DNA of 16,572 nucleotides, from contig JAITTM010000082.1 in assembly GCA_031286975.1 (NCBI GenBank), positions 1-16,572 of the forward strand. Direction: 5' to 3'. Each line of letters starts with the position of its first letter. Position 1 is the stretch's first letter. Source of the stretch: Coriobacteriales bacterium. GTDB taxonomy: Bacteria; Actinomycetota; Coriobacteriia; Coriobacteriales; UBA8131. Positions 11,310 to 13,924 of this stretch are shown piece after piece. The translations under genes were made by a program, and so were the position numbers. The notes under the pieces are model-generated. The model searched no databases, had not been told where the DNA came from, and was given only the letters and a program-made list of their open reading frames with translations.

Positions 11310-12620
11310 CTAGCCCTTGAACGGGGTAGTGCCGGTGGGGTCGGTGGGTAGTTCGGGGTAGTGTTCGTCCAGGCTGCGGTTGGTGCCGTAGATGCCCTCG
11401 GGTGCTCCCGAAAGCAGGGCGATGATGCTGTATTTGCCCGCAGTATCGGTGGGCTCCGTCACGCATGAGAGCCCTGCTTGGCTTGCCGCGTTAACCAACG
11501 TGGATACCGCTTGGGGCATCTGGAGCAACACGGCGTAGTAGCTGGGGATACTGCCGTCAGTCTCCGTGACTGTTGCGGGATCCTGCTCGTCTGTCTGTGC
11601 TGGTTGAACGCCTGCTGTGTCAGTGGTTTGGGGATACGGCAGACTGCCCGCCATGCCCAGCTCCTCGAATGCCTGGGCGATGCGCACGCCCGCAATGCTG
11701 GTGATGTATGAGTTCGAGCTCGTGGCCTCATTGTTTGTGACCCAGAGGTCCACGATGCCGTTGCATGCGTAGGGCACACTCTTCTGCCCTGCTACCTGCT
11801 GCGCCAAGCGAACGAGTGCCTCCTGCGAGGTCTCGTCGGCGGGTGCCACGCTCGTGATGTACTCCGTCTCAACCGTGATGATGTCACGGCGCAGCAAAAG
11901 CAGCGTGAGCGGATACCGCTCATCAAAGCGCTCCTCGATCAGGGCGAGGCTGCGAGCCTCCAAAGCTGCGGGGGTCTCCGCTGCCGCCGCATCCTGCAAG
12001 GCCGATCCACCCGCTGTGCCGTCTGTTGTGCCGTCTGTTGTGCCATCTGTAGTGCCGTCTGTAGTGCCGTCTGTAGTGCCAGCTGCCGCCTGCCCCTTCT
12101 GCTCCTGCAGCGCCGCCTGGAGTGCCACGGGATCCTCCTCGAAGGTCCACTCGGCAGCCAAGGCTCGCGCCAGCGTATCGACGTAGCTCTCGCCATTGGT
12201 TTGGGGCAGTATCTTCTGCAGTTCAGTGGCGGTCTCCTCGTCAGCTATACCAAAATCGGGCTGGCTGACCGCAATGCTGATGGGAATACCGCCGCTTTGT
12301 GTGATGAGCTGACCCACCAACTGCACCGTCTGCGCATCATCATCGTTTGACAACACCACCACGGTGCGCCCGTCAAGCCGCTCGCTTTGCCAGGCGCCCA
12401 GCAGTTGTGTGGCAAAGGGCCGGGTGGCCTCAAGCTGCCGGGAAAGATCATCGTTTTGGGTCTTGATGGTATTGAACTCGTCGAGCAGCGACTCGACCAT
12501 GCCGTTTGAGGTGTCGCGCACGATGTCGCTGCCGCCAATGCCCGCGCCGAGCACGAGGCCTAATGCGAGTGCCAAGAATATCGAGCAGATGGTGACGATG
12601 TGATACCGAAAGTTGTACAT
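11310..12620 (-). CDS. steB: SteB/MctB-like cell-envelope protein (copper transporter MctB family)
   Basis: The 436-aa protein begins MYNFRYHIVTICSIFLALALGLVLG, the hallmark N-terminal anchor of the MctB family (PF11382). A coiled coil follows (about 41-66), then an extracytoplasmic domain with RTVVVLSNDDDAQ (85-97). In M. tuberculosis MctB is linked to copper homeostasis; in Corynebacterium the homologue SteB works with SteA in daughter-cell separation. The second role fits better because steA is next to it. Residues 181-204 are a low-complexity (TDGT)n linker encoded by a tandem repeat. ATG 12620 has AGGAG six bases upstream. It is separated from steA by an inserted element and followed by another. 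Function is inferred from family and synteny. Confidence 0.88.
   Translation of the reverse strand: MYNFRYHIVTICSIFLALALGLVLGAGIGGSDIVRDTSNGMVESLLDEFNTIKTQNDDLSRQLEATRPFATQLLGAWQSERLDGRTVVVLSNDDDAQTVQLVGQLITQSGGIPISIAVSQPDFGIADEETATELQKILPQTNGESYVDTLARALAAEWTFEEDPVALQAALQEQKGQAAAGTTDGTTDGTTDGTTDGTTDGTAGGSALQDAAAAETPAALEARSLALIEERFDERYPLTLLLLRRDIITVETEYITSVAPADETSQEALVRLAQQVAGQKSVPYACNGIVDLWVTNNEATSSNSYITSIAGVRIAQAFEELGMAGSLPYPQTTDTAGVQPAQTDEQDPATVTETDGSIPSYYAVLLQMPQAVSTLVNAASQAGLSCVTEPTDTAGKYSIIALLSGAPEGIYGTNRSLDEHYPELPTDPTGTTPFKG
12016..12087. repeat. 12-bp in-frame tandem repeat within steB
   Basis: Six consecutive 12-bp units read GTGCCGTCTGTT, with single-base variants; the last unit is the most diverged. 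On the steB strand they encode TDGT units. The unit is a multiple of three, so copy-number change keeps the frame. Confidence 0.95.
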
Positions 12621-12630
12621 GCTGTGCTCC

Positions 12631-12796
12631 TAGGGAGGCATTGATTAATTCTGGTACCTGCCATTGTGCTGGATTTTGGATGCAATTTCAATGCAGAAAA
12701 TCGAGGCGTATTATACATACGATGAGATTTTGTGCGTTGAAAGTGCGCTAAAAGACGGTGCAAGGGTAGGTGTCAGAATTAATCAATGCCTCCCTA
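12631..12796. mobile_element. MITE-like element with 21-bp perfect terminal inverted repeats inserted at the steA-steB junction
   Basis: TAGGGAGGCATTGATTAATT at 12631 is perfectly mirrored to 12796. The inverted repeats match over 23 bases counting the TA flanks (12631-12653 against 12774-12796), with partial pairing beyond (ACCT, CC). The 162-bp body (12633-12794) is AT-rich, unlike its neighbours, and encodes nothing. TA at 12631-12632 and 12795-12796 is the likely target duplication. Deleting the body plus one TA gives, on the minus strand, ATTTAGGAGCACAGCATG: the steA stop TAG merges with the steB AGGAG and the ATG follows after nine bases. The body also carries TATAAT on the minus strand (12715-12710), a possible -10 box for steB, without a clear -35. 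Confidence 0.8.
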
Positions 12797-13924
12797 AATG
12801 CCCAAGTGTGTGCGGATATTCAACCACATGATTATGAAGACTTGCCGGAGCGGCGGAGAGATCGCTATGGCGGCGATAAGGGCGACCAGCGCTGCAAGCA
12901 CGGTGAGCAGGATATAGCGCGGTGGCGGAGTGGCGCGGTAGAGCTTGCTCACGCCCTTGGCATCCACCAACTTGGTGCCCACCTTAAGCCGCACCAAAAA
13001 CGAGGATGCCATACCACTGCGACCCTTATCGAGGTATTCCACCAGGTTGGAGTGCGTGCCCAAAGCGACGATGAGGTCGGCTTTCTTCTCCCAGGCAAGC
13101 AAAAGCGCCAGATCTTCACTCGTGGCACTGAGCGGCCAAGGTGTGACCGTCAGCCCCAGCTTCTGCACGCGCTCAAGCGAGGGGCAGGTGCCGTCGTCGT
13201 AGGCATGGGGAATAACCTCGGCACCGCAGAGCAGCGCCTTATCGGTCACCGAATCCATGTCGCCGATGATGATGTCAGGGGTGAAACCAGCTTCGAGCAG
13301 GGCATCGGCACCGCCATCGACCCCGATGAGCACCGGCTTCACCTCGCGGATATAGGAGGTGAGGGTCTTGAGATCCTGCAGGTAATCATAGCCGCGCACC
13401 ACCACCAGCACCTGACGATGCCGTATCTCCGTTGTGAGAGGCGGTATCCAAGGGTCGTAGATGAAGCTCCCCTTTTGCTTCTCAAGATACTCGGCGGTGT
13501 TTTTCACAAAGAGCTCGAGCTCGGCATCGATCTGCTGGTCAGCGGTATCCATGTAAAACTCCACCAGCGCCGCGTCGAGGTTGATGCCCGAGGCAACCAG
13601 CACATGGTTGCAATACAGGTCGTTGCCGTGGATGCCCAGCTCGTCGCCGTCCTGCACGATGTCAAAGACCTCGGCACCCACCTCGTCGAGCAGCTGGATA
13701 CCGGCATCCACCAGGATCTGTGGCCCGATGTTGGGGTAGCGCCCGCTGATCGACTTGGCGGCATTGACCACGCCCTTGACACCGCTTGCCACCAGCCCCT
13801 CAGCCGAGACGCGGTCGATGTCAACGTGGTCGATAACGGCGATATCGCTGGCCGTCAGGCGCTTGACGAGATCCTTGGTCTTCTTGCCCTTTTGCGCTGT
13901 GCCGCCAATCGTACTGGTCGCCAT
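12794..13924 (-). CDS. steA: SteA-like cytokinetic ring / cell separation protein
   Basis: The 376-aa protein matches the SteA family (Rv1697 type), which carries a thiamin-pyrophosphokinase-like fold and a C-terminal membrane anchor. Visible motifs are GVDGGADALLEAGFTPDIIIGDMDSV (split here as GVDGGADALL at 201-210 and GDMDSV at 221-226), ATSEDLALLLA (267-277) and VALGTHSNLVEYLD (286-299). A single helix (about 337-355) is followed by a short basic tail. In Corynebacterium SteA localises to the division ring with SteB and supports peptidoglycan hydrolase-driven daughter separation. It starts three bases after the recN stop. Its own stop, TAG at 12796-12794, straddles the edge of the inserted element. 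The same stop would exist without the insertion, so the protein is intact. Confidence 0.9.
   Translation of the reverse strand: MATSTIGGTAQKGKKTKDLVKRLTASDIAVIDHVDIDRVSAEGLVASGVKGVVNAAKSISGRYPNIGPQILVDAGIQLLDEVGAEVFDIVQDGDELGIHGNDLYCNHVLVASGINLDAALVEFYMDTADQQIDAELELFVKNTAEYLEKQKGSFIYDPWIPPLTTEIRHRQVLVVVRGYDYLQDLKTLTSYIREVKPVLIGVDGGADALLEAGFTPDIIIGDMDSVTDKALLCGAEVIPHAYDDGTCPSLERVQKLGLTVTPWPLSATSEDLALLLAWEKKADLIVALGTHSNLVEYLDKGRSGMASSFLVRLKVGTKLVDAKGVSKLYRATPPPRYILLTVLAALVALIAAIAISPPLRQVFIIMWLNIRTHLGI

Follow-up and report, generated by a model that had tools for sequence, protein, structure and literature searches.

In a Coriobacteriales bacterium, a long inverted repeat lies between steA and steB, which raises the questions of whether it was inserted there, by what kind of transposition, and how both genes kept their signals. 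A preliminary description of the window, i.e., the whole stretch of 16,572 nucleotides analysed here, had read the repeat as a transposed MITE of IS630/mariner type with a 162-bp body between two TA dinucleotides. Our analysis indicates that the element is real and was very probably transposed. We consider it highly likely that the element is non-autonomous, that an IS5-family transposase recognising GGRRGYRYYGATTWA-type ends moved it in trans, and that it inserted in and duplicated a CTAG-like 4-mer at the steA stop. The features of the locus are as follows.

11310..12620, minus strand: steB-like gene (Pfam MctB PF11382, E 2.9e-21)
12627..12631, minus strand: steB Shine-Dalgarno AGGAG, two bases of which are shared with the target copy (from the sequence)
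12630..12633, no strand: putative steB-side copy of the 4-bp target, CTAG (flank comparison; family-level 4-bp duplication)
12634..12793, no strand: non-autonomous element (MITE), 160 bp, GG...CC (inverted repeat, second full-length copy, family-wide ends)
12634..12793, plus strand: RNA-like hairpin strand (10 G.U, 0 A.C)
12634..12653, plus strand: left terminal inverted repeat GGAGGCATTGATTAATTCTG (sequence; end model GGRRGYRYYGATTWA)
12663..12691, minus strand: promoter-like TTGAAA-17-CACAAT within the element; the 36 nt containing it are identical at 34/36 positions in the second full-length copy (C219)
12774..12793, minus strand: right terminal inverted repeat, the perfect complement of the left end (sequence; inverted-repeat search)
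12794..12797, minus strand: putative 4-bp target copy TTAG on the steA side, including the steA stop TAG (12796-12794)
12794..13924, minus strand: steA (NCBIfam NF040608 SteA, 473 bits)

On the minus strand, the order is steA, hairpin, and steB. The gene identities given in the preliminary description were upheld: the upstream protein matches SteA, and the downstream protein, whose domain match is MctB and whose name SteB is taken from that description, appears compatible with SteB. This SteB-like protein also has five consecutive GTTD repeats mid-chain (12021-12080, minus strand). The outer 21 bp of the inverted repeat (GGGAGGCATTGATTAATTCTG) are perfect, with TA at both sides, and lie between steA and steB as had been described. 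The arms (12631-12677 and 12750-12796) comprise 47 nt and are 81% complementary. The fold was better than all 200 shuffles both as DNA (z = -9.25, 191 nt) and as RNA (z = -7.57, 221 nt); the inverted repeat is far beyond chance. The minimum free energy of the element was -95.4 kcal/mol on the plus strand versus -61.6 kcal/mol on the other strand, and on the mRNA strand the predicted stem links the steA stop with the steB Shine-Dalgarno region. The promoter-like site is a weak signal (one found versus 0.4 expected in shuffles; permutation p 0.039), and no Rfam family matched the window at the gathering threshold.

Joining the window flanks with one target copy gave ...GGCATTTAGGAGCACAGCATG, reproducing the sequence proposed earlier, and an element-free steA-steB junction of the same species or genus would be expected to read ...GGCATYTAGGAGCACAGCATG. 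The joined site is tight (9 nt) as a reconstruction from the flanks; the steA-steB spacers of the two closest relatives (73-74% SteA identity) are 82 and 84 nt and have another sequence. The view that the joined spacing equals that of the other coupled pairs did not hold, with 3 nt between the recN stop and the steA ATG and with the recN start overlapping the nadK end. In the 11 relatives in which both genes were found adjacent, all more distant than the same genus, the steA-steB gap was 7-125 nt and never about 160 nt. The comparison of junctions suggested earlier thus bore out the absence of the spacer, and a base-exact empty site was not among these junctions.

The genome from which the window comes (G000; 1.7 Mb in 230 contigs, 76% complete) contains a second full-length copy (G000:C219:855-1018, L010), which is 77% identical to the window element and is flanked by the end of a gatB-like gene and by a phoU-like gene (names from ORF reading only), as well as partial and related-end copies. 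A loose end pattern had 69 matches in this genome versus 17 for the reversed control; therefore, many of these matches are due to chance. A search for the terminal repeat, as had been proposed, revealed further copies in related genomes as well: the ends were present in 14 of the 33 family genomes, including the own genome, with a 21-mer and up to three mismatches (reversed control, 0), and in 17 of the 33 with a 17-mer and up to two mismatches (control, 4 hits in three genomes). In a class-wide draw of 396 genomes (17-mer, at most one mismatch; control, 1), matches were obtained in 7 of 16 family genomes and in 3 of the 380 others, with one hit each. The named matches comprise 20 loci in five MAGs titled Coriobacteriales bacterium. 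Viral contigs gave no match in exact-pattern scans, nor did genome contigs in a first scan of this kind, in which the own genome was possibly not included. When the whole window element was used as a DNA query against 60 genomes, the own genome was the sole match, and the interior of the window element is similar to that of one other copy only.

Among the matches listed, at least 189 end clusters were counted; 155 of them were unfetched, of which 100 were then fetched. From the fetched loci, we gathered 75 end pairs, which represent part of all matches and passed a filter (11 of 15 like end bases) that biases the test of end-likeness within an element upward. Thirty-one of them are 160 or 161 bp long, and the other sizes include 152, 218, 119, and 98 bp. 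Seven are 26-27 bp and consist of two fused ends (L020:1502-1528, L030:1494-1520, and five G018 loci); the 4-bp flanks are identical in two of these seven (TAAG and CTTG). Both ends carry the self-complementary core ATTAAT; therefore, deletion between these direct repeats would give scars of 26-27 bp. Forms of 161 and 60 bp with the end GGAACCACTGATTAA were found in addition in the own genome, and the 60-bp forms (L253, L257, L261, and L262) appear to be 161-bp elements shortened internally. The family thus forms a natural size series of complete IS, 218, 161, 119, 98, and 60 bp, and 26-27-bp fused ends. In a genome of a different genus (G017), the steA stop is directly followed by GGAAGTGTCGATTGATTGCTTCC-CTAC (L099, G017:C62), possibly a 23-bp remainder, after deletion, of a separate insertion at the same stop; a similarity search with the collected elements gave no match at this site. 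The sequence after the putative remnant resembles a tRNA gene by eye, and no steB was detected in this locus.

In G005, a sister element separates a TAG stop from the following gene. The same-genus genome G030 lacks it at the orthologous junction, where the flanks on both sides align with 88% identity; compared with the joined G005 flanks, this G030 junction lacks about 11 nt next to the site and is not a base-exact empty site. With further copies in the own genome and in the family, relatives without the spacer, and this sister element missing from an orthologous junction, the earlier proposal of a transposed MITE was sustained; the spacer is not common to all relatives, and the element is not a single copy.

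To characterize the hairpin, 27 copies of 160-163 bp from eight genomes were aligned, namely L251 and 26 of the 36 elements measuring 150-163 bp. The window and C219 copies, the 151-152-bp elements L040, L074, L079, and L207, the divergent or unoriented elements L048, L153, L177, and L187, and the N-holding element L122 were left out. On the strand beginning with CATTG, double changes occurred in 28 of 46 pairs, and the covariation score was 0.324 versus 0.105 in shuffles and at most 0.086 with the pairing slid. On the opposite, CTTG-first strand, double changes occurred in 40 of 59 pairs, with a consensus energy of -98 versus -44 kcal/mol, and this strand was the more stable one in all 27 copies, by 26 kcal/mol on average. 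When the arms were aligned with each other without folding, A.C exceeded G.U on the CATTG-first strand in 32 of the 34 oriented 150-163-bp elements (255:78); A.C on this strand corresponds to G.U on the other. The ratio was 39:13 in five 209-220-bp elements and 40:24 in twelve shorter ones, and one near-invariant pair by the loop is opposite in sense (U.G on the CATTG-first strand, 26/27). The copies are related, so the mismatch counts are not independent events. The 161-bp sister lineage is a covarying hairpin with wobbles that are mostly G.U on one strand.

The window copy has 10 G.U and 0 A.C on its folded strand, which is the plus strand and hence antisense to steAB, while its closest copy in the own genome, C219, is not one-sided (7:7). 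We rejected the window interior as a homologue of the 161-bp lineage, as the covariance model of this lineage, applied up to E 1, did not report the copy in the window or that in C219. This model matched 4 of 246 genomes, a draw whose family genomes are only partly identifiable, namely the own genome and three from two other Coriobacteriales families. The elements of these three genomes (L287, L288, L289, and L291) are hairpins of 91-159 bp with closely similar ends, and one of them is placed on the stop of a 499-codon ORF.

A constraint at the RNA or ssDNA level in the amplifying lineage is a possible, unproven cause of this pattern. It is conceivable, although less likely than not, that one strand must fold as RNA or ssDNA while the lineage amplifies; the hairpin would then be no by-product of long terminal repeats, and in these DDE-type MITEs a transcript or folding signal specific to one strand would be selected during propagation and released from selection after a copy settles. 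On the other hand, mutation bias combined with arm-to-arm correction (quasipalindrome template switching) could produce the one-strand wobbles with no RNA selection; this is a fair rival, to which we give an even chance. It agrees with the many double Watson-Crick changes on the tree (50 on internal and 49 on terminal branches) and with ends that are alike within an element beyond same-genome shuffles, a result that the pair filter favours. Terminal branches likewise show an excess of G.U (gains of G.U:A.C, 44:16), and the difference from internal branches (35:4) reaches only p 0.07. Furthermore, the folded strand showed no orientation bias relative to host genes (35 sense, 49 antisense, p 0.16; the gene being only the longest ORF in the flank). 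Two observations speak against mutation bias and correction. With symmetric scoring, i.e., pairing without RNA energies, used since the pairs of RNAalifold favour the folded strand, the mismatch types common to at least two copies were 32 G.U versus 6 A.C on the folded strand, whereas private types were balanced (12 G.U versus 14 A.C; Fisher p 0.002), and three 119-bp elements of G009 (L064, L173, and L180) had no asymmetry (10:11 summed). A fold on one strand only is unexpected for "junk" elements such as these. If the one-strand structural constraint is true, it would show that a bacterial MITE depends on its hairpin in some way when it spreads.

The target copies in the window (TTAG and CTAG, minus strand) agree at three of four bases, and the window copy alone is compatible with a duplication of either 4 bp or TA; its size of 160 bp is set by the sister copies. 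Therefore, of the extent given earlier, the inverted repeat stood, and the 162-bp body flanked by TA gave way to 160 bp with a 4-bp target. At the family level, a YTAR-like 4-bp duplication was found, with identical 4-bp flanks in 24 of 85 elements (shuffle mean 11.6, maximum 21 in 10,000). The 85 elements are the 75 end pairs without four doubtful ones plus 14 added elements (six from the own genome, L268, three large ones, and four from the RNA model). Seventeen of the identical flanks are CTAG, and the others are CCGG, TAAG, CTTG, CAAG, CCAG, and TTAG twice; the first five of these lack a central TA, the CCAG case being an element with a poor right end (L181). Flanks with at most one mismatch showed a modest excess (49/85 versus 40.6 expected, p 0.009), and no single flank position was significant when tested separately. 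Decay of old copies would blur these flank tests. Where an outermost G or C deviated, the deviating letter was shared by the partner copy in only 3 of 11 and 5 of 12 instances. On the evidence of the sister copies, the duplicated target appears to be 4 bp and CTAG-like rather than the dinucleotide TA. The 4-bp target duplication of IS5 is given as YTAR in the accessible part of one report (PMC10359306) and as C(A/T)A(G/A) in that of another (PMC11677980). The CTAG/YTAR-like 4-bp duplication matches IS5 and MITEPsy1, not the TA of IS630, and the IS630/mariner filing is therefore disfavoured.

Two elements with matching ends encode IS5-family transposases. A G002 element of 1390 bp (L241/L047), the right end of which is the contig end, has perfect terminal repeats of 19 nt that include CTAG and encodes an IS5-family transposase of 329 aa (263 bits; cut-off 140). 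A G007 element of 1109 bp (L242) has CTAG on both sides and an IS5-family transposase (207 bits) that is apparently short at the N-terminus. Both share window-type ends; in a comparison by eye, the left end of L242 agreed with the window end at 12 of 15 bases, and the end of L241 agreed with it at 10 of 15. Transposases related to that of G002 were detected in 5 of the 33 family genomes, three only weakly, and none was found in the own genome, which is 76% complete. In addition, a 2.5-kb locus of G007 (L246, G007:C1, 117-2631) has window-type ends with CTAG at both and carries divergent IS5-family and IS630-family transposases; it is either a nested insertion or a composite. This IS630-family transposase beside the IS5 one, together with the TA at both sides of the window element, fits the earlier assignment to an IS630/mariner-type MITE with a 2-bp TA duplication. 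However, seven of the 24 identical 4-bp flanks are not CTAG and five of these have no central TA, and the G002 and G007 elements encode IS5-family transposases, which speaks against this filing; we regard it as very unlikely. That the repeat is a resident, non-mobile regulatory hairpin of the steAB operon, as its strong fold and the promoter-like sequence kept in the C219 copy might suggest, is scarcely credible, because none of the 11 relatives has a spacer of about 160 nt, same-end elements lie at unrelated places with identical 4-bp flanks in excess, and the dispersed copies already argue strongly against it.

Based on the dispersed copies, the shared ends, the excess of identical 4-bp flanks, the IS5 transposases in relatives, and the orthologous junction without the sister copy, we propose the following course of insertion. 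An IS5-family transposase would act in trans on the GGRRGYRYYGATTWA-type ends of the non-autonomous element, which would insert into CTAG-like (YTAR) 4-mers and thereby lead to their duplication; we infer the mobilisation in trans from these sequence comparisons. Here, the target would have been YTAG, in which Y is the third base of the last SteA codon and TAG is the stop. After insertion, the steA stop would persist in the TTAG copy, and the steB AGGAG in the CTAG copy together with the GAG that follows it. Since the stop and the Shine-Dalgarno sequence are each kept by one target copy, neither protein and neither signal is lost, and a hairpin of 160 nt now separates the two genes, consistent with the earlier claim that the junction was split without harm to either protein. 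Either T or C as the first target base keeps isoleucine as the last SteA residue; therefore, the single difference between the target copies is silent. The end of the window element also provides a backup TAA in the steA frame, four codons on. In the steAB mRNA, the stem is predicted to close and to bring the stop codon and the Shine-Dalgarno sequence together at its base. Such a closed stem could limit the loss of translational coupling, as the 160 nt would be bridged rather than open, and an effect of the element on steB expression is conceivable from this model.

To what extent elements of this family land on stop codons was counted for 57 elements with flanks of at least 400 bp out of the 75 end pairs, using ORFs of at least 120 codons. 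Nineteen are on an ORF stop, seven are read into in that frame, seven are in another frame, and 24 are intergenic. Outside elements, the same loci contain 251 CTAG sites, of which 149 are genic, 36 are stops, and 66 are other sites. As 36 of the 102 non-genic CTAG sites are stops anyway, there is no clear excess, and we rejected a special targeting of stop codons. The CTAG target rule together with the loss of harmful insertions therefore accounts for the fit at the steA stop. When ORFs of at least 100 codons were considered, eight ends are entered by a reading frame that terminates 12 bases within the element, mostly where CCAG replaces TAG. At the C219 copy, which provides one of these eight, the gatB-like gene of the own genome has CCAG at the place of the target stop, and its protein has an element-made tail ending 12 bases inside; similar same-frame read-in cases are present in other genomes. 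A simple rule follows from the proposed course: an element that duplicates CTAG/YTAG can hit a TAG stop while sparing both this stop and the next Shine-Dalgarno sequence. The window holds an ordinary event, an IS5-type MITE on a stop codon, in a family with an unusual one-sided structural signature.

We compared the window family with known systems. Among the matches listed, literature that treats bacterial MITEs together with CTAG or IS5, with stop codons, with hairpins, or with compensatory G-U evidence contained no equivalent, and the listed papers on coriobacterial MITEs contained no such elements. IS5 of Escherichia coli resembles the window family in its 4-bp target duplication and in its transposase, which belongs to the same family as those of the G002 and G007 elements, but is autonomous, unlike the window element. 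The ends of IS5 have a sequence other than those of the window element, and the ends of Correia and ERIC elements also differ from them. Like the window element, Correia and ERIC elements are intergenic MITEs, and according to the part of the report available they can alter mRNA processing or decay once transcribed (PMC10969869). QMITE1 and QMITE2 are described, in the accessible portions of two reports, as long-palindrome MITEs with strongly folding transcripts, some of which yield small RNAs, and QMITE2 occurs mostly in 3' untranslated regions; they differ from the window family in sequence and duplication, and a strand analysis of G.U and A.C is absent from these portions (PMC5896051, PMC10969869). 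MITEPsy1 of Pseudomonas syringae, which is related to ISPsy2 of the IS5 family, is 100 nt long with 18-nt ends of another sequence and six copies in the tabulated strain, and the excerpted description contains no long covarying hairpin (PMC3189936). The same excerpt shows MITEPsy1 to be like the window family in being short and non-autonomous, with a left end starting with GGAAGG, a 4-nt duplication of CTAG or YTAA, and ends similar to those of an IS5-family IS (PMC3189936).
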